A DNA stretch of 64,000 nt from Streptomyces sp. Go-475 (GTDB lineage: Bacteria > Actinomycetota > Actinomycetes > Streptomycetales > Streptomycetaceae), in the NCBI RefSeq assembly GCF_003330845.1, contig NZ_CP026121.1, positions 7,111,501 through 7,175,500 of the forward strand, read 5' to 3'. The translations under genes were made by a program, and so were the position numbers. Below are positions 4,491 to 41,643 of this stretch, piece by piece. Within the stretch, counting starts at the first letter, position 1. Each line of letters opens with the position of its first letter. The notes under the pieces are model-generated. The model had not been told where the DNA came from. It made no database searches and saw nothing but the letters and a program-made list of their open reading frames with translations.

Positions 4491-5606
4491 ATGACGAACA
4501 CCAAGCGGAGCGTCACGCACCCGGCCCCCCTCCTCGGCACCCGCGCGCTCAACCGCGCCACCCTCGACCGGCAACTGCTCCTGCGCCCCGCCCGGATGTC
4601 CGCCGCGGCGGCCGTCGAGCACCTGGTCGGCCTCCAGGCGCAGAACGTCAAGCCGCCGTACTACGCGCTCGCCGCCCGCCTCGACGGATTCACCCCCGAG
4701 GCGCTGTCGCGGCTGATGGCCGACCGGGAAGTGGTCCGTATCGTCACGATGCGTTCCACCATCCACACCCACACCGCGGACGACTGCCTCACCCTGCGTC
4801 CGCTGGTGCAGCCCGCCCGGGACCGGGAGCTGGTGAACTTCCGCAAGGGGCTGGCCGGTGTCGACCTGGACCGGCTCGCCGTCCTCGCCCGCGAGCTCGT
4901 CGAGGCGGAGCCGCGCACCATGAAGCAGTTGCGCGAGGCACTGCTGCGGGAGTGGCCCGACGCCGACCCGCAGGCCCTGGCCGTCGCCGCGCGGTGCCGG
5001 CTGCCGCTGGTGCAGGTCACCCCGCGCGGACTGTGGGGACGCAGCGGCCAGGTCAGTCTCACGACCGCCGAGCACTGGCTCGGGCGGCCCGCGGAAGCCG
5101 CCCCCGAGCCCGACGCGGTCGTCCTGCGCTACCTCGCCGCCTTCGGCCCGGCCTCCGTGCGGGACATGCAGACCTGGGCCGGACTGACCCGGCTGCGGGA
5201 CGCCTTCGAGCGCCTCCGGCCGCGGCTCGTGACCTTCCGGGACGACAGCGGCACCGAGCTCTTCGACCTCCCGGACGCTCCCCGCCCCGACCCGGACACC
5301 CCCGCCCCGCCCCGCTTCCTGCCCGAGTTCGACAACCTGCTGCTCTCCCACGCCGACCGCACCCGCGTCGTCCCGCCCGAGTACCGGGGCCGCTCCTGGC
5401 AGGGGAACTTCGTCTACTGCACGCTCCTCGTCGACGGCTTCCTCGCGGGGCTGTGGCGGCTGGCGGAGGGCGCGCTCGTGATCGAGCCCTTCGGCCGACT
5501 CACCAAGACCCAGCGCGAGGACGTCACCGCCGAGGGGGAGCGGATGCTGAAGGTGATGCACCCGGAGGCGTCGTACGACATCCGCTTCGGCACCGTACGC
5601 GGCTGA
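4491..5606 (+). CDS. winged-helix DNA-binding domain protein (HTH_42/DUF1006-like)
   Basis: A 371-residue protein of the widespread actinobacterial family annotated as winged helix DNA-binding domain-containing protein. Visible features are the N-terminal RALNRATLDRQLLL segment, the LVGLQAQN motif around residue 46, the TMRSTIHTHTADD segment near 85-97, repeated winged-helix-like segments in the middle, and a C-terminal FLPEFDNLLLSHADR motif typical of the family. E. coli YcaQ, a DNA-glycosylase-like protein for interstrand crosslinks, is a distant relative; whether this protein has such activity is not shown. The ATG at 4491 fits the start of conservation, although the frame is open upstream. 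It is divergent from corA. Confidence 0.75.
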   Translation: MTNTKRSVTHPAPLLGTRALNRATLDRQLLLRPARMSAAAAVEHLVGLQAQNVKPPYYALAARLDGFTPEALSRLMADREVVRIVTMRSTIHTHTADDCLTLRPLVQPARDRELVNFRKGLAGVDLDRLAVLARELVEAEPRTMKQLREALLREWPDADPQALAVAARCRLPLVQVTPRGLWGRSGQVSLTTAEHWLGRPAEAAPEPDAVVLRYLAAFGPASVRDMQTWAGLTRLRDAFERLRPRLVTFRDDSGTELFDLPDAPRPDPDTPAPPRFLPEFDNLLLSHADRTRVVPPEYRGRSWQGNFVYCTLLVDGFLAGLWRLAEGALVIEPFGRLTKTQREDVTAEGERMLKVMHPEASYDIRFGTVRG

Positions 5607-5627
5607 GCGCGGGGCCCGGACATGGAG

Positions 5628-5670
5628 AGGGGGCGTTGCGGGCCGCTCGTGGAGGCCCGCAACGCCCCCT
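5628..5670. terminator. bidirectional hairpin terminator
   Basis: A 17-bp stem, 5628-5644 pairing with 5654-5670, with a 9-nt loop, sits between the convergent winged-helix gene (ends 5606) and the trypsin gene (ends 5710). The stem is AGGGGGCGTTGCGGGCC on the plus strand. It can end transcripts from both sides. Confidence 0.85.
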
Positions 5671-5709
5671 GGCATTTCACCTGAGGGGTACTCAGGAGCT
5701 AGTGGCGGG

Positions 5710-6501
5710 TCAGGAGTTGACCTGCGTCGTCACCAGGTTCGAGAAGGTGGTCAGCCGGGTGTAGACACCCGGGTAACCGGCCTGGGCGCAGCCCTCGCCC
5801 CAGGAAGTGATGCCTGCCAGGACGCCCCCGATGAGCAGGGGGCCGCCGCTGTCGCCCTGGCAGGTGTCCACGCCGCCGGAGGTCTTGCCGGCGCACACCA
5901 TGTCGCTCTGCACGAAGTCGGAGCCGTAGGAGCTCGCGCAGCTGGAGTCGGACACGGTCGGTACGGTCGCGGTGCGCAACTGGTTGGAGGAGCTGCCGCC
6001 CGAGGAGGTGGTGCCCCAGCCCAGGATGCGGGCAGTGGTGCCGGCCGCGTACACCGAGGTCTGGGAGGAGGAGACGTACTTCGCGGGGGTGTAGGGCATC
6101 GACGTCGACAGCGTCAGCACGGCCACGTCGTCGCCGTTGGTGGCGTCGGTGTAGCTGGGGTGGATCCAGATCTTGCTGACTCTGCTGACGGTGCCGTCGG
6201 TGCCGTTGCGGTAGGTGCGGCCGCCGACCACGCGGACGCTGCTGGTGGTCTCGCCGACCATGCAGTGCGCGGCGGTGACGACCTTGGTGGGGGAGACCAG
6301 CGTGCCGCCGCAGAACTGGCTCTGCGAGGCGTCCGTGATCTGCATGACGAACGGGTACGCGGTCGTCGTGGTCGTGGTTCCGCCGACGATCGGCTGGGGC
6401 GCGGCGACGGCCGTGGGGGCGGCGAGCAGCGCGGTCGTGGCGGCGGCAGCGGTGGCCACGGCGACGGCGGCGGCCTTCTTGGCGGCGTTGAGCCCGAACA
6501 T
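5710..6501 (-). CDS. secreted trypsin-like serine protease (family S1)
   Basis: A 263-residue preproprotease. Residues 1-33 form a signal peptide (basic KK, then an Ala-rich core ending AVAA). The mature chain would begin at Ile38 in IVGG after a four-residue propeptide, the classic trypsin activation site. The triad is His79 (TAAHC), Asp125 (DDVAVL) and Ser218 (GDSGGP). Asp212, six residues before the serine, is the S1-pocket residue giving Lys/Arg specificity. Paired cysteines (64/80, 188/203 and 214/238 regions) suit disulfides. The ATG at 6501 is preceded by AAGGAGAC; the upstream in-frame extension lacks coding character. It is most like Streptomyces griseus-type trypsins. Confidence 0.93.
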   Translation of the reverse strand: MFGLNAAKKAAAVAVATAAAATTALLAAPTAVAAPQPIVGGTTTTTTAYPFVMQITDASQSQFCGGTLVSPTKVVTAAHCMVGETTSSVRVVGGRTYRNGTDGTVSRVSKIWIHPSYTDATNGDDVAVLTLSTSMPYTPAKYVSSSQTSVYAAGTTARILGWGTTSSGGSSSNQLRTATVPTVSDSSCASSYGSDFVQSDMVCAGKTSGGVDTCQGDSGGPLLIGGVLAGITSWGEGCAQAGYPGVYTRLTTFSNLVTTQVNS

Positions 6502-15449: not shown

Positions 15450-15485
15450 TTCCAGATCGTAGAAAATACTTTCCACCATACGGAA
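15450..15485. promoter_or_regulatory. paired 15-bp operator-like sites upstream of gcl
   Basis: Two imperfect inverted repeats lie 60-95 bp before the gcl start: TTCCAGATCGTAGAA (15450-15464) and TTCCACCATACGGAA (15471-15485). Their centres are 21 bp apart, two helical turns. The same two-site arrangement with the same spacing is present before hyi. In S. coelicolor the IclR-family repressor AllR controls gcl, hyi and other allantoin/glyoxylate genes, so these are plausible AllR sites (inference). Confidence 0.7.
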
Positions 15486-18714: not shown

Positions 18715-20172
18715 TCAGTCCTCGCGCAGGGCGCGGACCGCCTCCTCCACGCGCCGCCCGTAGTCGGGGTCGGCGGCGTGGAAGTGCGCGAGGTTCTTCT
18801 CGATCACGTCGTCGCGGGAGACCTGGGAGAGGCCGCCGGCGATGTTCGCGACCAGGCGGGACTTCTCCTCGGCGGACATCAGCCGGTACAGCTCGCCCGC
18901 CTGGAAGAAGTCGTCGTCCTTGGTGTGGGCAGGGGCCGCGTGGGTGCCCGTGTGGCCGTGCACCGCGAGCGGGGCCGACAGCGGCCGGCCGGTCTCGACC
19001 GGGCCGTCGTAGGAGTTCGGCTCGTAGTTCTTCGCGTACCGGCCCTGCGGGTTGGACGCCATGAGGCCGTCCCGGCCGTAGTTCTCGGCGGTCGTGGCCC
19101 GGGGCGCGTTGACGGCCAACTGCGTGTGGTTGACGCCCAGGCGGTAGCGGTGGGCGTCCGCGTAGGCGAACAGCCGGCCCTGGAGCATCTTGTCGGGCGA
19201 GGGGCCGATGCCCGGCACGAAGTTGTTCGGGGAGAACGCGGCCTGCTCGACCTCGGCGAAGACGTTGTCCGGGTTGCGGTCGAGGACCAGCCGGCCCACG
19301 CGCCGCAGCGGATGGTCGGCGTGCGGCCAGACCTTGGTCAGGTCGAACGGGTTGAAGCGGTAGCCGGCCGCCTCGGACGCCGGCATGAGCTGCACGTACA
19401 GGGTCCAGGACGGGTGCACGCCCCGCTCGATGGCCTGGAGCAGGTCCGTCTGGTGGGAGTTCGGGTCCTTGCCGGCGAGCTCCGCGGCCTGCTCGCTGCT
19501 CAGGCAGCGGATGCCCTGGTTGGTCTTGAAGTGGTACTTGACGAAGAAGGCCTCGCCCGCGCTGTTCGTCCACTGGTAGGTGTGCGAGCCGTAGCCGTTC
19601 ATGTGCCGGTACGAGGCCGGGATGCCGCGGTCGCCCATCAGCCAGGTCACCTGGTGCGTGGCCTCGGGGGAGTGCGCCCAGAAGTCCCAGACGTTGTCCG
19701 GCTCCTGACGGCCCGTGAACGGGTCCCGCTTCTGCGAGTGGATGAAGTCCGGGAACTTGATGGGGTCCTTGATGAAGAACACCGGCGTGTTGTTGCCGAC
19801 GAGGTCGTAATTGCCCTCCTCGGTGTAGAACTTCACCGCGAAACCACGCGGGTCGCGGACCGCGTCCGCGCCGCCCAGCGAGTCGGCCACGGTGGAGAAG
19901 CGGACGAACACCTCGGTGCGCCGGCCGACCGTGGTCAGGAAGTCGGCGTGCGTGAAGTCCGTGACGTCGTCGGTGACTTCGAAGTGGCCGTACCCGCCCG
20001 AGCCGCGGGCGTGCACCACGCGCTCCGGGATGCGCTCGCGGTTGAAGCGCGCGAGCTTCTCCAGCAGATGCTGGTCCTGGAGCAGGAGCGGGCCGCCGAC
20101 GCCGGCGGTGGCGGAGTTCTGGTTGTCGGCGACGGGGGCGCCGGACTCGGTGGTGAGCACGCGCTGCGACAT
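18715..20172 (-). CDS. katA: clade 3 small-subunit haem catalase
   Basis: A 485-residue monofunctional catalase converting hydrogen peroxide to water and oxygen. The distal active-site His54 lies in [16 protein letters not shown], the distal Asn in [12 protein letters not shown], and the proximal haem-ligand Tyr in [14 protein letters not shown]. Length and sequence fit the clade 3 small-subunit group, which also binds NADPH. The ATG at 20172 is preceded by GGAAGG; an in-frame ATG at 20250 would place the start inside the promoter. A strong hairpin separates it from glxR upstream, and it has a near-consensus promoter of its own with an 18-bp element shared with the urate genes, so its role here is probably to remove peroxide made by urate oxidase (inference). 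Confidence 0.96.
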
Positions 20173-20221: not shown

Positions 20222-20262
20222 AGCCTAGGGTCGGGGCGATCGGGCGTCAACAGTTTGTTGAA
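20222..20262 (-). promoter_or_regulatory. katA promoter with palindromic operator shared with the urate operon
   Basis: On the minus strand a -35 TTGACG (20250-20245) and -10 TAGGCT (20227-20222) are separated by 17 bp, a near-consensus housekeeping promoter. Overlapping the -35 is TTCAACAAACTGTTGACG (20262-20245), containing the palindrome TCAACA-AAC-TGTTGA. The identical 18 bp occurs at 36628-36645 in front of the OHCU decarboxylase gene, again over the -35 box. Overlap with -35 suggests repression. Confidence 0.8.
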
Positions 20263-20280: not shown

Positions 20281-20339
20281 CCGGGCGGTGCCGCCGCTCT
20301 GGGCGCGACAGGACAGGTGTCAGCGGCGGCACCGCCCGG
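20281..20339 (-). terminator. long hairpin after glxR
   Basis: An 18-bp perfect stem (20281-20298 with 20322-20339) and a 23-nt loop, beginning 18 bp beyond the glxR stop. It separates the hyi-glxR transcript from katA. Confidence 0.8.
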
Positions 20340-22143: not shown

Positions 22144-22179
22144 TTCCACATTGCGGAATCATGTTTCTGCGTAATGGAA
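22144..22179. promoter_or_regulatory. paired 15-bp operator-like sites upstream of hyi
   Basis: Read toward hyi, the distal site is TTCCATTACGCAGAA (22179-22165) and the proximal site TTCCGCAATGTGGAA (22158-22144), centres 21 bp apart, the proximal one 46 bp before the start. They match the gcl pair in sequence, order and spacing: both distal copies end in AGAA and both proximal copies in GGAA. The proximal one is part of a longer ATTCC-N7-GGAAT palindrome. AllR (IclR family) is the best candidate regulator. Confidence 0.72.
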
Positions 22180-35959: not shown

Positions 35960-36211
35960 GTGCGACTGAGAGTGGAGTTCACGACCGAGCCCTTCGACCT
36001 GGACGAGGCGCCCGCGCACGCCGTGGTGGCCCGCGAGGTCGTCGAGGCCGCCGAGCTGGACGCCGTGGACGTGGGCCCCTTCGGCAACACCGCGGAGGGC
36101 GGTGCCGACGCGGTGCTCACCGCCGTGGACGCCCTGCTCCGCAGGACCCTGGAAGCGGGCGCCACCCGGATCACGCTCCAGGTCAACGTGGTCGAGGAGG
36201 GCGAGGCATGA
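35960..36211 (+). CDS. YkoF/MTH1187-like small protein (thiamine-binding-type fold)
   Basis: An 83-residue protein. Its pattern, LRVEFTTEPFDLDEAPAHAVVAREVVEAA, then VDVGPFGNTAEGGADAVLTAVDALLRRTLEAGATRITLQVNVVE, matches the ferredoxin-like fold of the MTH1187/YkoF thiamine-binding group. Ligand is unknown. The GTG at 35960 is only six bases after a TAGGTT -10 box (35948-35953), and no ribosome site is present, so the mRNA is probably leaderless. Its stop overlaps the next start (ATGA), tying it to the small regulator. Confidence 0.65.
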   Translation: MRLRVEFTTEPFDLDEAPAHAVVAREVVEAAELDAVDVGPFGNTAEGGADAVLTAVDALLRRTLEAGATRITLQVNVVEEGEA

Positions 36212-36576
36212 GCGGCCCGGGGGACGAGCCGTTCATCGCGGCCGTCAAGCCGCTGGTCGACGCGATGGGCGGCGAGATGATCCCGCCGGACGAGGCCGGC
36301 CCCGACGACGTCGTCCTGTCCTGGGAGGGCCGCGACGCCGTCGCCGTGCGGCTGCCGCAGCTCGCCGACTCCCTGGACCACATCCTCGCCGCCATGGAGC
36401 GTCGCAAGGGCATGCCGCTGGCCGACCTGGACCGCAAGGCCAAGCAGGAGGTGGTGCGGATACTCGAGGCGCGCGGCGCCTTCTCCGTACGGCACGGCGT
36501 GGAGACCGTGGCGAGCGCCCTCGGCGTCAGCCGCTTCACCGTCTACAACTACCTCAACCGCGAAAAGGGAGCCTGA
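36208..36576 (+). CDS. small HTH regulator with DauR-like C-terminal domain
   Basis: A 122-residue protein. Its C-terminal 60 residues, KQEVVRILEARGAFSVRHGVETVASALGVSRFTVYNYLNREK, match the DauR/YheO-type HTH. The N-terminal 65 residues are a small alpha/beta segment with no PAS domain of full YheO. It is coupled to the upstream 83-residue gene and stands 143 bp before the urate genes, so it is the best local candidate for the regulator acting on the 18-bp palindrome (36628-36645). That link is positional inference only. Homologous small HTH proteins sit at this place in other Streptomyces urate loci as far as can be recalled. Confidence 0.72.
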   Translation: MSGPGDEPFIAAVKPLVDAMGGEMIPPDEAGPDDVVLSWEGRDAVAVRLPQLADSLDHILAAMERRKGMPLADLDRKAKQEVVRILEARGAFSVRHGVETVASALGVSRFTVYNYLNREKGA

Positions 36577-36627: not shown

Positions 36628-36670
36628 TTCAACAAACTGTTGACGTGCTGTCGGGGGAGGGCGTTAGCTA
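36628..36670 (+). promoter_or_regulatory. urate-operon promoter with palindromic operator identical to that of katA
   Basis: TTCAACAAACTGTTGACG (36628-36645) contains the palindrome TCAACA-AAC-TGTTGA and its last six bases form a -35 box TTGACG. A -10 candidate TTAGCT begins 18 bp later (36664-36669). The same 18 bp occurs, inverted, before katA. The element ends 74 bp before the uraD start, against 72 bp for katA. Confidence 0.8.
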
Positions 36671-36719: not shown

Positions 36720-37232
36720 GTGACGTCCACTTCCACGCCGCCGGGCCTGGCCCGTTTCAACACGCTCGAGGAGCACGCGGCCCTCGCCGCGCTCCACGAG
36801 GTGTGCGCCTCCTCGGCGTGGGCCCGGCGCCTGCTCGCCGCCCGCCCCTGTGCCACCGTCGAGGACCTGTACGCCGCGAGCGACGCCGCCACGGCCGGGC
36901 TGACCGCCGAGGACCTCGCGGAGGCGATGGCCGGGCACCCGCCGATCGGCCGTCCCAAGCCCGGCGACCCCGCCTCGGCCCGGGAGCAGCGCGGCATGGC
37001 CGGCGCCTCCGAGGAGCTGAGGGCGGAGATGCTGGAACTGAACCTGGCCTACCAGGAGAAGTTCGGCCACGTCTTCCTGATCTGCGCCACCGGCCGCACC
37101 GGCGAGCAGATGCGCGACGCGGTCAAGGAGCGGATCGGGAACGCGCCGGAGCGGGAGCGCGAGATCGTCCGCACCGAGCTGGGCAAGATCAACCGCATCC
37201 GCCTGGCCCGACTCGTGGAAGAGGAAGCCTGA
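36720..37232 (+). CDS. uraD: OHCU decarboxylase
   Basis: A 170-residue 2-oxo-4-hydroxy-4-carboxy-5-ureidoimidazoline decarboxylase, the third step from urate, giving S-allantoin. The conserved catalytic-His motif is in AGHPPIGRPKP, the SxxEQ block is ASAREQRGMAGAS, and FGHVFLICATGRTGEQM is the family core. The GTG at 36720 follows GGAGG; an upstream GTG-rich open frame has no ribosome site. It is 2 bp before uraH. Confidence 0.95.
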   Translation: MTSTSTPPGLARFNTLEEHAALAALHEVCASSAWARRLLAARPCATVEDLYAASDAATAGLTAEDLAEAMAGHPPIGRPKPGDPASAREQRGMAGASEELRAEMLELNLAYQEKFGHVFLICATGRTGEQMRDAVKERIGNAPEREREIVRTELGKINRIRLARLVEEEA

Positions 37233-37234
37233 TC

Positions 37235-37630
37235 ATGAGCACCAGCACCACCGCATCCGTGTCCACGCACATCCTGGACACCAGCGTCGGCCGCCCCGCC
37301 GAGGGCGTCGCCGTCCACCTCGCCGCCCGCGCGGGCCGGGAGGCGGACTGGCAGGCGCTCGGCGGCTCCGCGACCGACGCGGACGGGCGGTGCAAGGACC
37401 TCCCGGCGCTGCCGGAGGGGACCACCCACGTACGGCTCGACTTCGCGGTCGAACCGTACTTCGAGAAGAAGCAAGCCGATGCGCAGCAGGACGCCCCCGC
37501 GAATCGGGACAGCGGCGCCGGTGTGTTCTTCCCGGAGGTGGCGATCACGTTCGCCGTCGTGCCGGGCGAGCACTACCACGTACCGCTGCTGCTCAACCCG
37601 TTCGGCTACTCCGTTTACCGAGGGAGCTAG
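37235..37630 (+). CDS. uraH: 5-hydroxyisourate hydrolase (transthyretin-related)
   Basis: A 131-residue transthyretin-like enzyme hydrolysing 5-hydroxyisourate to OHCU. The N-terminal signature STHILDTSVGRPAEGV and the C-terminal YRGS (SVYRGS) are the family hallmarks, along with HYHVPLLLNPFGYSVY. A short extra loop EKKQADAQQDAPANRD is inserted before the last strands. The ATG at 37235 follows GGAAGAGGAAG. It is packed between uraD and the urate oxidase gene. Confidence 0.96.
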   Translation: MSTSTTASVSTHILDTSVGRPAEGVAVHLAARAGREADWQALGGSATDADGRCKDLPALPEGTTHVRLDFAVEPYFEKKQADAQQDAPANRDSGAGVFFPEVAITFAVVPGEHYHVPLLLNPFGYSVYRGS

Positions 37631-37632
37631 CT

Positions 37633-38556
37633 ATGCCCACCATCCTGGGACAGAACCAGTACGGCAAGGCCGAGAACCGAGTCGTCAAGATCACGCGGGA
37701 CGGCGCCACCCACCACATCAAGGACCTGAACGTCTCCGTGTCGCTGAGCGGCGACATGGACGAGGTCCACTACTCCGGCTCGAACGCCAACGTCCTGCCG
37801 ACCGACACCACCAAGAACACGGTGTACGCGTTCGCCAAGGAGCACGGCATCGAGTCCGCCGAGCAGTTCGGCATCCACCTCGCCCGCCACTTCGTCACCA
37901 GCCAGGAGCCGATCCACCGGGCCCGCATCCGCATCGAGGAGTACGCCTGGGAGCGGATCGAGGCCTCCGACGCCAACTCGAAGTTCATCGGCGCCGACGA
38001 GGTCAAGCACTCCTTCGTCCGCAAGGGCCAGGAGGTCCGGCTGACCCAGATCACCTACGACGGCTCGTCGTGGGAGGTCGTCTCCGGTCTCAAGGACCTG
38101 GTGGTCATGAACTCGACCAACTCCGAGTTCTGGGGCTACGTCAAGGACAAGTACACGACCCTCAAGGAGGCCTACGACCGCATCCTGGCCACCGAGGTCT
38201 CCGGCCGCTGGCGGTTCAACTGGACCGACGACGAGCAGCGCATGCCGAACTGGGAGAAGTCCTACGAGCAGGTGAAGAAGCACATGCTCCAGGCCTTCGC
38301 CGAGACGTACTCGCTCTCGCTGCAGCAGACGCTGTACCAGATGGGCGCGCGGATCATCAACCACCGCAGCGAGATCGACGAGGTCCGCTTCTCGCTCCCC
38401 AACAAGCACCACTTCCTGGTCGACCTGGAGCCGTTCGGCCTGAAGAACGACAACGAGGTGTACTACGCCGCCGACCGCCCCTACGGCCTGATCGAGGCGA
38501 CGATCCTCCGGGACGGCTGCGAGGCGAGGATCCCCGTGGACCTCACCAACCTCTGA
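37633..38556 (+). CDS. uox: urate oxidase (uricase)
   Basis: A 307-residue cofactor-free urate oxidase, forming 5-hydroxyisourate and hydrogen peroxide. The tandem T-fold pattern is clear. Conserved active-site elements are Lys in NQYGKAENR, the Thr of PTDTTKNTVY, and LPNKHHFLVDL (Asn/His pair) near the C terminus. The ATG at 37633 follows GGGAGC. The peroxide it makes explains why its operon shares a control element with katA. A hairpin (38575-38607) follows the gene. Confidence 0.97.
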   Translation: MPTILGQNQYGKAENRVVKITRDGATHHIKDLNVSVSLSGDMDEVHYSGSNANVLPTDTTKNTVYAFAKEHGIESAEQFGIHLARHFVTSQEPIHRARIRIEEYAWERIEASDANSKFIGADEVKHSFVRKGQEVRLTQITYDGSSWEVVSGLKDLVVMNSTNSEFWGYVKDKYTTLKEAYDRILATEVSGRWRFNWTDDEQRMPNWEKSYEQVKKHMLQAFAETYSLSLQQTLYQMGARIINHRSEIDEVRFSLPNKHHFLVDLEPFGLKNDNEVYYAADRPYGLIEATILRDGCEARIPVDLTNL

Positions 38557-38664: not shown

Positions 38665-40044
38665 ATGGCAGCAGACCGGCGCATCGTCATCGAGAACTGC
38701 GCGATCGCGACCGTCGACGGACACGACACCGAGTACGCCTCCGGGCACGTCGTCCTCGCCGGCAACCGCATCGAATCCCTCGGCGCGGGCCCGGCCCCCG
38801 AGGGCCTGGAGAACGTCGCCCGCCGCATCGACGCCTCCGGCCACCTCGTGACACCCGGACTGATCAACACCCACCACCACTTCTACCAGTGGATCACCCG
38901 CGGCCTCGCCACCGACCACAACCTCTTCGACTGGCTGGTCGCGCTGTACCCGGTCTGGGCGCGCATCGACGAGCCGATGGTCCGCGCGGCCGCCCAGGGC
39001 TCGCTCGCGATGATGGCCCGCGGCGGCGTCACCACCGCCATGGACCACCACTACGTCTTCCCGCACGGCTCCGGCGACCTGTCCGGCGCGATCATCGGTG
39101 CCGCCCGCGACATGGGCGTCCGCTTCACCCTCGCCCGCGGCTCCATGGACCGCAGCGAGAAGGACGGCGGCCTGCCCCCGGACTTCGCCGTCGAGACCCT
39201 CGACGGGGCCCTCGCCGCCACCGAGGAGACCGTCCGGCAGCACCACGACTCCTCCTTCGACGCCATGACCCAGGTCGCCGTCGCGCCCTGCTCGCCCTTC
39301 TCCGTCTCCACGGAACTGCTGCGCGACGGCGCCCAGCTGGCCCGCCGCCTCGGCGTCCGGCTGCACACGCACGGCTCGGAGACCGTGGAGGAGGAGAAGT
39401 TCTGCCACGAGCTGTTCGGCATGGGCCCGACCGACTACTTCGAGTCCACCGGCTGGCTCGGCGAGGACGTGTGGATGGCGCACTGCGTCCACATGAACGA
39501 CTCCGACATCGCCGCCTTCGCCCGGACCCGGACCGGCGTCGCCCACTGCCCCTCCTCCAACGCCCGCCTCGCCGCCGGCATCGCCCGCGTCCCCGACATG
39601 CTCGCCGCCGGCGTCCCGGTCGGCCTCGGCGTCGACGGCACCGCCTCCAACGAGTCCGGCGAACTCCACACCGAGCTGCGCAACGCCCTCCTCATCAACC
39701 GCCTCGGCGGCCACAAGGAGGCCGCGCTCAACGCCCGCCAGGCGCTGCGCCTCGGCACCTACGGCGGCGCCCAGGTCCTCGGCCGGGCGGCCGAGACCGG
39801 CTCCCTGGAGCCCGGCAAGCTCGCCGACCTGGTCCTGTGGCGGATGGACACCCTCGCCCACGCCTCCATCGCCGACCCGGTGACCGCCCTGGTCTTCGGC
39901 GCGGCGGCCCCGGTCGCCGCCTCCTTCGTGGGCGGCCGGCAGATCGTCGAGGACGGGCGCCTGCTCACCGCCGACGAGGACGCCATCGCCCGCGCCACGC
40001 GCGACGAGGCCCGGCGCCTGGCGCGGATCGCCGCCGAGGCCTGA
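38665..40044 (+). CDS. 8-oxoguanine deaminase (amidohydrolase family)
   Basis: A 459-residue amidohydrolase that hydrolyses 8-oxoguanine to urate. It has the small beta-sandwich ends and the TIM barrel of the superfamily. Metal ligands show in NTHHHFYQW (HxH near 70-72), RLHTHGSET and WMAHCVHM, and the catalytic Asp lies in GLGVDGTASNESG. The CPSSNARL block is also typical. Chlorohydrolase-type annotations are alternatives, but placement beside the urate oxidase supports 8-oxoguanine. The ATG at 38665 follows AAAGGA. Length fits the family. Confidence 0.88.
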   Translation: MAADRRIVIENCAIATVDGHDTEYASGHVVLAGNRIESLGAGPAPEGLENVARRIDASGHLVTPGLINTHHHFYQWITRGLATDHNLFDWLVALYPVWARIDEPMVRAAAQGSLAMMARGGVTTAMDHHYVFPHGSGDLSGAIIGAARDMGVRFTLARGSMDRSEKDGGLPPDFAVETLDGALAATEETVRQHHDSSFDAMTQVAVAPCSPFSVSTELLRDGAQLARRLGVRLHTHGSETVEEEKFCHELFGMGPTDYFESTGWLGEDVWMAHCVHMNDSDIAAFARTRTGVAHCPSSNARLAAGIARVPDMLAAGVPVGLGVDGTASNESGELHTELRNALLINRLGGHKEAALNARQALRLGTYGGAQVLGRAAETGSLEPGKLADLVLWRMDTLAHASIADPVTALVFGAAAPVAASFVGGRQIVEDGRLLTADEDAIARATRDEARRLARIAAEA

Positions 40045-40257: not shown

Positions 40258-41643
40258 GTGGCCGACCACCCCGTTGACGAAAAACTCCCCGCGCTCAAGA
40301 TGGCGACGACCGGCCTGCAGCACGTGGCCGCCATGTACGCCGGAGTCGTCGCCCCACCCCTGATCGTCGGCGCGGCCATCGGCCTGACCGCCAGCGACCT
40401 GACCTTCCTCACCGGCGCCTGCCTGTTCACCGCGGGCCTCGCCACCTTCCTGCAGACCCTCGGCATCTGGAAGATCGGCGCCCGGCTGCCGTTCGTCAAC
40501 GGTGTCACCTTCGCCGGTGTCGCCCCGATGACCGCGATCGTCGCCTCCACCGAGGACAAGTCCGACGCCCTGCCGATCATCTTCGGCGCGGTCATCGTCG
40601 CCGGACTCCTGGGCTTCATAGCCGCCCCCGTCTTCTGCAAGGCGATCCGCTTCTTCCCGCCGGTCGTCACCGGCTCCGTGATCACCCTCATCGGCATCTC
40701 GCTGCTGCCCGTCGCCTTCGGCTGGGCCCAGGGACCGGACCCGGCCGCGCACGACTACGGCTCGGCGACCAACCTGGGCCTCGCGGGCGTGACCCTGCTG
40801 ATCGTGCTGCTGCTGCGCCGCTTCACCCGGGGCTTCGTCAAGCAGATCGCCGTGCTGCTGGGTCTGGTCGCCGGCACGCTCATCGCGATCCCGTTGGGCG
40901 TCACGGACTTCGGCCCGGTCGCGGACGCGGACGTCATCGGCTTCCCGACGCCGTTCCACTTCGGCGCCCCGCAGTTCCAGCTCGCCGCGATCATCTCGAT
41001 GTGCGTGGTGATGGTGGTGTCGATGACCGAGTCGACCGCCGACATGCTGGCCCTCGGCGAGATCGTCGACCGCCCGGCCGACGAGAAGACCATCGCCGCC
41101 GGCCTGCGCGCCGACACCCTCGGCTCGGCGATCAGCCCCGTCTTCAACGGCTTCATGTGCAGCGCCTTCGCGCAGAACATCGGCCTGGTCGCGATGACGA
41201 GGATCCGCAGCCGGTACGTCGTCGCGGCCGGCGGCGGATTCCTGGTCCTCATGGGCCTGTGCCCGATGGCCGCCTCGCTGATCGCCGTCGTACCGCGCCC
41301 GGTCCTCGGCGGCGCGGGCGTGGTCCTCTTCGGCTCGGTCGCCGCCAGCGGCATCCAGACCCTGGTGCGGGCCGGCCTCGACAAGGACAACAACGTCCTG
41401 ATCGTGGCCGTCTCCCTGGCCGTCGGCATCATCCCCATCACGGCGCCGGAGTTCTACCACGCCTTCCCCGAGACGGCCCGGATCGTCCTGGACTCGGGCA
41501 TCTCGACGGGCTGCGTGGCGGCCGTGCTGCTCAACCTGGTCTTCAACCACCTGGGCGACAGCGGCCGGGAGGCCCACGACGTGACCCACCCGATGGAGGC
41601 GGGTGAGGAACTCACGGGCACGCCGAAGGCACCAGCCGCGTAG
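40258..41643 (+). CDS. nucleobase:cation symporter (NCS2, xanthine/urate type)
   Basis: A 461-residue NCS2 permease with about 14 membrane helices. The family signature region includes the conserved QHVAAMYAGVVAPPL (TM1), VNGVTFAGVAPM, and in TM10 the motif NGFMCSAFAQNIGLVAMTRIRSR. The latter resembles the purine-transporting (xanthine/urate) branch rather than uracil. The GTG at 40258 is preceded by GGAGGG at 8 bp spacing. It likely imports urate or xanthine for the enzymes encoded just upstream. Confidence 0.92.
   Translation: MADHPVDEKLPALKMATTGLQHVAAMYAGVVAPPLIVGAAIGLTASDLTFLTGACLFTAGLATFLQTLGIWKIGARLPFVNGVTFAGVAPMTAIVASTEDKSDALPIIFGAVIVAGLLGFIAAPVFCKAIRFFPPVVTGSVITLIGISLLPVAFGWAQGPDPAAHDYGSATNLGLAGVTLLIVLLLRRFTRGFVKQIAVLLGLVAGTLIAIPLGVTDFGPVADADVIGFPTPFHFGAPQFQLAAIISMCVVMVVSMTESTADMLALGEIVDRPADEKTIAAGLRADTLGSAISPVFNGFMCSAFAQNIGLVAMTRIRSRYVVAAGGGFLVLMGLCPMAASLIAVVPRPVLGGAGVVLFGSVAASGIQTLVRAGLDKDNNVLIVAVSLAVGIIPITAPEFYHAFPETARIVLDSGISTGCVAAVLLNLVFNHLGDSGREAHDVTHPMEAGEELTGTPKAPAA

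Follow-up and report, generated by a model that had tools for sequence, protein, structure and literature searches.

Regulators of the DauR type combine a PAS_6 domain with an HTH_22 domain, and HucR and PecS are urate-responsive MarR repressors. In Streptomyces, AllR, of the IclR family, reportedly regulates the allantoin pathway. The small protein encoded beside the urate operon described here shares HTH_22 with the DauR/YheO type (PAS_6 + HTH_22), but has only 122 aa, belongs to a different pathway and gives no PAS_6 match at E ≤ 0.1 (Pfam); the likeness concerns the proteins. The original prediction had called it DauR-like, a name that suits its HTH_22 domain (PF13309, 73.7 bits against a cut-off of 29.6) and does not extend to PAS_6. 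It would do the same job as HucR and PecS, repressing until a metabolite of the urate pathway lifts the block, but those have the MarR fold, whereas no MarR domain was matched in the candidate at E ≤ 0.1 (Pfam). AllR serves a neighbouring branch of the same pathway, with an HTH_IclR domain and a TTCC-N7-GGAA motif, unlike the HTH_22 candidate. XdhR of S. coelicolor likewise controls purine-degradation genes, namely the xdh operon; its DNA binding is weakened by ppGpp and c-di-GMP, and the word catalase is absent from the main text of that report (PMC6627660). A YheO-like PAS_6–HTH regulator is mentioned in the available part of PMC10717218.

A second small protein of the locus is related to MTH1187, TM0486 and YkoF (PF01910, YqgV/DUF77). 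The fold is the same, as shown for a fused homologue; here, however, the protein comes with an HTH protein, either as a separate partner or within a single polypeptide, and the window copy scores under the Pfam cut-off. The PF01910 family is known as one of thiamine binders, and a PF01910-type sensor fold is not known to occur in transcription control. TM0486 is named as thiamin-binding in a reference title within the accessible part of PMC6393860. No earlier description of the HTH_22 regulator or of its putative palindrome was found in the open-licence literature searched. Our comparison of genomes suggests that the 122-aa HTH_22 protein encoded beside uraD probably represses purine catabolism, with the palindrome TCAACA-N3-TGTTGA as its operator.

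An identical 18-mer before katA and the urate operon

The window, that is, the whole 64-kb stretch of DNA analysed, contains the following features.

18715..20172, minus strand: katA, catalase (PF00199, PF06628)
20222..20227, minus strand: katA promoter, −10 box TAGGCT, spaced 17 bp from TTGACG
20245..20262, minus strand: predicted operator at katA, with the palindrome at 20247–20261, overlapping the −35 box TTGACG at 20245–20250 (minus)
20281..20339, minus strand: terminator-like hairpin between glxR and katA, from folding
35960..36211, plus strand: PF01910/MTH1187-like protein (YqgV, 'thiamine-binding' fold), 83 aa, its gene overlapping the HTH gene by ATGA
36208..36576, plus strand: candidate repressor, 122 aa, with HTH_22 (PF13309) at residues 56–117
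36628..36645, plus strand: predicted operator at uraD, with the palindrome at 36629–36643, overlapping the −35 box TTGACG at 36640–36645
36664..36669, plus strand: uraD promoter, likely −10 box TTAGCT, spaced 18 bp from TTGACG, not a strict TAnnnT
36720..37232, plus strand: uraD, OHCU decarboxylase (PF09349, TIGR03180)
37235..37630, plus strand: hiuH, transthyretin-like 5-hydroxyisourate hydrolase (PF00576)
37633..38556, plus strand: urate oxidase (PF01014, TIGR03383)
38665..40044, plus strand: 8-oxoguanine deaminase (PF01979; NF006055 above cut-off)
40258..41643, plus strand: NCS2 xanthine permease (PF00860, TIGR03173)

Identical copies of the 18-mer TTCAACAAACTGTTGACG are located at 36628–36645 on the plus strand and at 20245–20262 on the minus strand, separated from the start codons of uraD (GTG at 36720) and katA (ATG at 20172, minus strand) by 74 and 72 bp, respectively. 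Each copy holds the 15-bp palindrome TCAACA-AAC-TGTTGA, and at both places TTGACG lies in the right half-site. The scan and the remeasured distances thereby reproduce what the original prediction had claimed of the two copies, their palindrome, their near-equal spacing from the start codons and their overlap with a −35 box, and the domain matches bear out its gene names katA, uraD and urate oxidase. The hairpin it had placed between glxR and katA is also present, with an 18-bp stem and a minimum free energy of −49.2 kcal/mol (z −3.05 against shuffles). A putative Mce-type transport gene cluster, identified by reading, occupies about 23–33 kb of the window, with hyi on one side and the urate operon on the other; katA and uraD are separated by about 3 kb in many other Streptomyces loci.

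Two copies of this element had been judged improbable by chance. Consistent with this judgement, two or more matches to the 18-mer occurred in none of 100 dinucleotide shuffles of the window, and a third copy is absent from the window at up to three mismatches. In the 8.57-Mb genome, the 16-mer core with up to two mismatches is found at both window sites and at one more place, the third palindrome of the genome (TTCAACATATTGTTGA, about 4218222). By a first-order Markov estimate with window composition, about 0.02 occurrences of TCAACANNNTGTTGA are expected per 8.57 Mb, against the three found. Together with the conservation in 150 genomes described below, the shuffles, the genome scan and this estimate rule out a chance origin of the pair. 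A recent duplication of a promoter block was set aside as well, since the flanks, compared by reading and without alignment, share nothing past the 18-mer.

The third exact site of the genome is located between a cyclophilin-like gene (PF04126) and cydAB, divergent from cydA; across the genus, 12 distinct palindromes between the cyclophilin-like gene and cydA were collected. Sites with one mismatch occur at 21 places in the genome, as compared with three for the reversed control. Ten of these were looked at: one lies 14 bp before allB, eight lie inside called reading frames, and the remaining one is outside any called ORF, in an intervening stretch. One more, at 1663973, is also within a reading frame.

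Conservation of the palindrome and its putative target genes

In 150 Streptomyces genomes, TCAACA-N3-TGTTGA is present in 145, with one to five copies each, as compared with 4 of 150 for the reversed pattern; these are raw counts, and some of the copies are coding. The original prediction would have fallen if the motif were missing before the katA and uraD homologues of other Streptomyces, and it was found there. The exact palindrome occurs within the 220 bp upstream of 73 of 83 uraD matches in the named set, which comprises the best 80 of at least 550 confirmed loci (from at least 593 stretches), gathered with patterns that included the conserved HTH segment. Of the full-length katA genes in loci selected on other grounds, 11 of 13 carry the palindrome 63–102 bp upstream, the two exceptions being in L295 and L307; ten further katA promoters were gathered at palindromes and have it by construction. 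Among the loci fetched, the link between katA and the palindrome is seen only in Streptomyces. The three centre bases vary (AAC, AAG, GAG, TAT and GTT).

The DNA fetched holds 139 distinct sites, from stretches picked for the palindrome or for the HTH gene, so that their counts are not frequencies. A short-listed gene follows 90 of them: uraD at 38, the cyclophilin-like gene at 12, katA at 10, ureA and uricase at 7 each, xdhA at 6, DUF6986 at 4, a purine permease at 3, allB at 2 and hyi at 1. A further 42 are unclassified. The remaining seven have a GCC/GGC core and lie in the coding sequence of a MarR-family gene; they were dropped as regulatory sites, although this coding copy is conserved in several Streptomyces (L037 5898, L041 5501, L248 and L250). 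Sites in trans, on other contigs or many kilobases away, precede xdhAB, permease genes, hyi-glxR-gcl, ureA, allB and DUF6986 genes. The palindrome-bearing genes are thus, as far as gene context can tell, a purine-catabolism regulon beyond urate and catalase. Of the urate/detoxification regulon originally proposed, the core stands, with the palindrome conserved at uraD and katA, and its bounds do not, as the predicted regulon also takes in ureA, allB, xdhA, permease and DUF6986 genes.

Several of these contexts deserve description of their own. Urease operons with a palindrome before ureA were found at seven Streptomyces loci (L054, L114, L116–L119 and L126), in six of which a TAnnnT follows about 7 bp after the palindrome (by reading). 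DUF6986 genes (PF22484, HpcH/HpaI-like; L123 at 1188–2492, L124, L125, L111 at 5223–6479, L251 and others) carry the putative operator in some Streptomyces, and in loci of Kribbella and Phycicoccus they are found upstream of the two regulator genes; DUF6986 is perhaps an enzyme of the purine or glyoxylate pathway. In G124 and G009, a palindrome follows glxR (L038 7163 and L042 5467), and the stretches fetched hold katA only in pieces, covering residues 366–485 in L038 and 279–320 in L042; these palindromes are perhaps operators that have outlived a decayed katA.

The placement of the sites bears on the direction of control. The right half-site TTGAC is followed by TAnnnT 17–18 bp on at all ten katA sites collected at palindromes, and likewise at all seven uricase promoters of a second family (described below). 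At the uraD sites collected, TTAGCT lies at 17–18 bp in 33 of 38, and a strict TAnnnT at 16–19 bp in 2 of 38. A protein bound there would mask the −35 box, so that repression is the likely mode of control at katA and uraD. Could the HTH_22 protein instead activate from the palindrome? Some sites, those at ureA and at the cyclophilin-like gene, are not at a TTGACG −35 box. Against this, the −35-like box is formed by the right half-site at katA, uraD and the second-family uricase gene, and the sites of the cyclophilin-like gene are at its start codon or just before; both placements are typical of repressors, and activation is quite unlikely.

It is scarcely credible that the palindrome is a mere conserved promoter or RNA element without a dedicated protein. 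The −35 box does lie inside the motif at uraD and katA, but the same 12 bases precede ureA, allB, xdhA and DUF6986 genes without that −35/−10 arrangement, and a −35/−10 pair of this kind was not found at the ureA, xdhA or cyclophilin-gene sites collected. Furthermore, the centre bases differ between sites, and the presence of the motif follows a protein gene.

A different motif marks the glyoxylate genes. TTCC-N7-GGAA occurs exactly twice in the window, at 15471–15485 before gcl and at 22144–22158 before hyi-glxR, and again at 7.2 Mb of the same genome between allR, an IclR gene, and allB. By reading, the site at 22144 and the allR–allB site fit fully, and that at 15471 loosely, the IclR consensus WTTYCRYW3RYGRAAW given in the accessible part of PMC8222616, which TCAACA-N3-TGTTGA does not fit. 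In the best 80 loci of the named set, 31 of 50 hyi genes and 7 of 25 gcl genes have an exact TTCC-N7-GGAA in front of them, whereas the exact palindrome precedes none of the 50 hyi and none of the 25 gcl genes; it was found before hyi-glxR-gcl in one genome, G430. These data bear on AllR, encoded beside allB, as the regulator that controls the palindrome promoters. AllR belongs to the same pathway, and the allR–allB intergenic region of the same genome holds a one-mismatch palindrome, but the motif before gcl and hyi and between allR and allB is of another type; on this ground AllR was ruled out as the palindrome binder, and its involvement is very improbable. Dual control of katA through TTCC-N7-GGAA was also set aside, the motif being exact in 2 of 23 katA promoters (13 of 23 within one mismatch). 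The pathway would seem to be split, with urate and catalase under the HTH_22 protein and glyoxylate use under an IclR-type regulator, and allB is perhaps under both.

Co-occurrence of the palindrome with the HTH_22 gene

In a class set of 197 genomes, with the orthologue line at ≥75 bits, an orthologue of the HTH_22 protein is found in 18 of the 20 Streptomyces members. Outside Streptomyces, only G185 has an orthologue; it has three palindromes, one of them about 130 bp past the HTH match. Among the genomes of this set without an orthologue, the exact palindrome occurs in 29 of 178 (27 of 176 outside Streptomyces), and the reversed control occurs in 9 of 177 non-Streptomyces genomes. None of the listed purine genes lies within 1.5 kb of the palindrome in 24 non-Streptomyces loci (L086–L109), in which several palindromes of one genus share a CCG/CGG-type centre. 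Taken alone, the class-set comparison is weak support for a link to the regulator.

The second family, that of G185, comprises 99 genomes, with an orthologue line of ≥66 bits drawn after the list had been seen. All 12 genomes with an orthologue have the exact palindrome and a uricase, and 10 of the 87 without one have the palindrome, as compared with 3 of 99 for the reversed control; no purine gene of the reference list is present in the 3-kb loci of those ten. When every protein match at E ≤ 0.001 is counted, the palindrome is found in 12 of 17 genomes. Fisher's test gives 7e-10 for all 99 genomes and 1.5e-6 for the 36 genomes with uricase, treating the genomes as independent, which they are not. 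With an orthologue, the palindrome lies within about 2 kb of the uricase gene in 10 of 12 genomes. In the other two, G404 and G431, a different contig holds the uricase gene, which has no palindrome in its vicinity, and the sites are at HTH, xdh and permease genes, the one beside the HTH gene of G404 having one mismatch. Five genera (g83, g100, g102, g114 and g122) hold members with and without an orthologue side by side. The orthologue-less members of g100, g114 and g122 have no palindrome, and those of g83 and g102 (G421 and G363) each have a palindrome at some other place, away from any listed purine gene.

The gene and the site are also close to each other. Within 1.5 kb of the HTH gene, the exact palindrome is found at 17 of 18 Streptomyces loci, that of the window's genome included, and at 10 of 12 second-family orthologues, as compared with none of 17 weaker or paralogous HTH loci (L074–L084 and L142–L147), two of which have one-mismatch sites. 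At the 18th Streptomyces locus (G095), about 13 kb separates the HTH gene from uraD, and it is uraD that retains the palindrome. In the 150 Streptomyces genomes, an intact orthologue is present in 144, all of which have the palindrome, coding or not. Among the five genomes without a palindrome, G043, G050, G113 and G135 have no orthologue, and in G010 it is split between two frames. In G010, uraD and uricase are retained, and 74 bp ahead of the called uraD ORF there is a site with one mismatch. The lack in G050 is uncertain, this genome being 82% complete with uraD at the end of the fetched locus, and G043, G113 and G135, like G120, say little, since uricase is absent too.

The best 80 loci of the named set cover 16 genera, Kribbella, Nocardia, Saccharopolyspora, Kitasatospora and Tsukamurella among them, and two MAGs above genus rank; two of these loci (L275 and L279) are second-family genomes, so that the sets overlap. 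The exact palindrome is present in 77 of these 80 loci (up to 12 kb), and for 75 of the 77 it is near the HTH gene. L266 and L301 have a site with one mismatch, and the Acidimicrobiales MAG L296 lacks both the palindrome and the partner gene. Tsukamurella has its regulator genes in divergent orientation to uraD, the palindrome lying in the intervening stretch, so that self-regulation is possible there.

These distributions bear on whether another, unlinked regulator binds the palindrome, the HTH_22 gene being a neighbour that travels with the urate operon. Tight linkage of the HTH gene to the operon makes co-occurrence near the operon partly expected, and G120, which has an exact palindrome before allB without an orthologue or uricase, is one clear counter-example, the site being perhaps a relic or that of another binder. 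However, in the second-family genomes that have uricase without an orthologue, the palindrome occurs in 4 of 24 and near uricase in none of 24, and the trans sites on other contigs go with the HTH gene too. In addition, G262, a Streptomyces outside the 150-genome set, keeps uricase, and only the MarR coding palindrome was found there, with no HTH orthologue. An unlinked binder is therefore unlikely. The palindrome tracks the HTH_22 protein and not uricase, and the adjacent HTH protein, which the original prediction had put forward as a candidate regulator, gains from its co-occurrence with the palindrome in two families and in the named set of 16 genera.

The PF01910-like partner and a proposed switch for purine catabolism

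The HTH segment RFTxYNYxN of the candidate is, like the operator, near-invariant in 29 aligned sequences. At paralogue loci (L074–L084), where the exact palindrome is found near the HTH gene in none of 11, the segment is readable in 8 of 11 and reads SRASAYxYL or SRVTAYxYL in seven and SRFTIYNYL in one (L078). Used by itself as a Foldseek query, the HTH model matched nothing at E ≤ 0.001, and a sequence search of solved structures with the HTH protein gave no hit either.

In 18 of 18 Streptomyces loci, in 12 of 12 second-family genomes and in 79 of the best 80 named loci, the PF01910-like gene either immediately precedes the HTH gene or forms a fusion with it. The window partner reaches 22.5 bits against PF01910, just below the cut-off of 24.9. 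In genus g34 (G185, G368, G406 and G432), partner and HTH are one protein, and the fused copy tested scores 39.8 bits for PF01910 and 68.2 bits for HTH_22; in L275 and L277, which are loci of Phycicoccus and Pedococcus, the two likewise share a single uninterrupted frame. For the G406 fusion, the model (pLDDT 90.7; pTM 0.49, leaving the domain placement uncertain) has the fold beta-alpha-beta-beta-alpha-beta, and the top PDB matches by Foldseek, which concern this fusion only and not the window copy, are 1lxn, 1yqh, 1lxj and 1vk8 (MTH1187, DUF77 and TM0486). A sequence search of solved structures with the partner gave one weak match, again TM0486 (E 0.28). Judged by this adjacency and fusion, the PF01910-like and HTH genes form a unit, and the PF01910-like protein is perhaps the sensor partner of the HTH protein. 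More specifically, we tentatively suggest, at somewhat less than even chances, that the two are halves of one repressor, of which the PF01910 half would bind a purine-degradation intermediate, with urate, 5-hydroxyisourate and allantoin as candidates, and would signal by contact to the DNA-binding half.

Published data on S. coelicolor touch on the same genes. In the available part of PMC6629963, SCO6209, SCO6247, SCO6248 and SCO4972 rise together in one RNA-seq comparison with no regulator named, which fits joint control. According to the accessible part of PMC4991794, SCO6209–6211 fall in a mutant of the SenS/SenR system, and therefore other inputs exist; a predicted SenR site before SCO6209 is included in a published list there. 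SCO6208, next to hpxQ, is a putative transposase in one table of the part of PMC3897704 available. Its place suggests that SCO6208 is the HTH_22 protein, in which case the transposase annotation may have hidden the regulator.

In the proposed mechanism, a dimer of the HTH_22 protein would bind TCAACA-N3-TGTTGA across the −35 box and block RNA polymerase at uraD-hiuH-uricase, probably together with the deaminase and permease genes that follow, as well as at katA and a few further promoters. A purine-degradation metabolite, sensed directly or via the PF01910-like protein, would release the repressor, and urate oxidase would come on together with the catalase that destroys its H2O2. The putative HTH_22 repressor appears to keep purine recycling off in many actinobacteria and, in Streptomyces, catalase as well.

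A regulator is hereby proposed for urate breakdown in Streptomyces and its relatives, and the arrangement suggests that one operator pairs an H2O2-making enzyme with its catalase. It also offers a functional setting for the small PF01910-like proteins and for DUF6986, and the predictions are narrow: one 12-base site, one 122-aa protein and one partner. If the two proteins are indeed halves of one repressor, they would constitute a split one-component regulator that serves as the main purine-catabolism switch of many actinobacteria.
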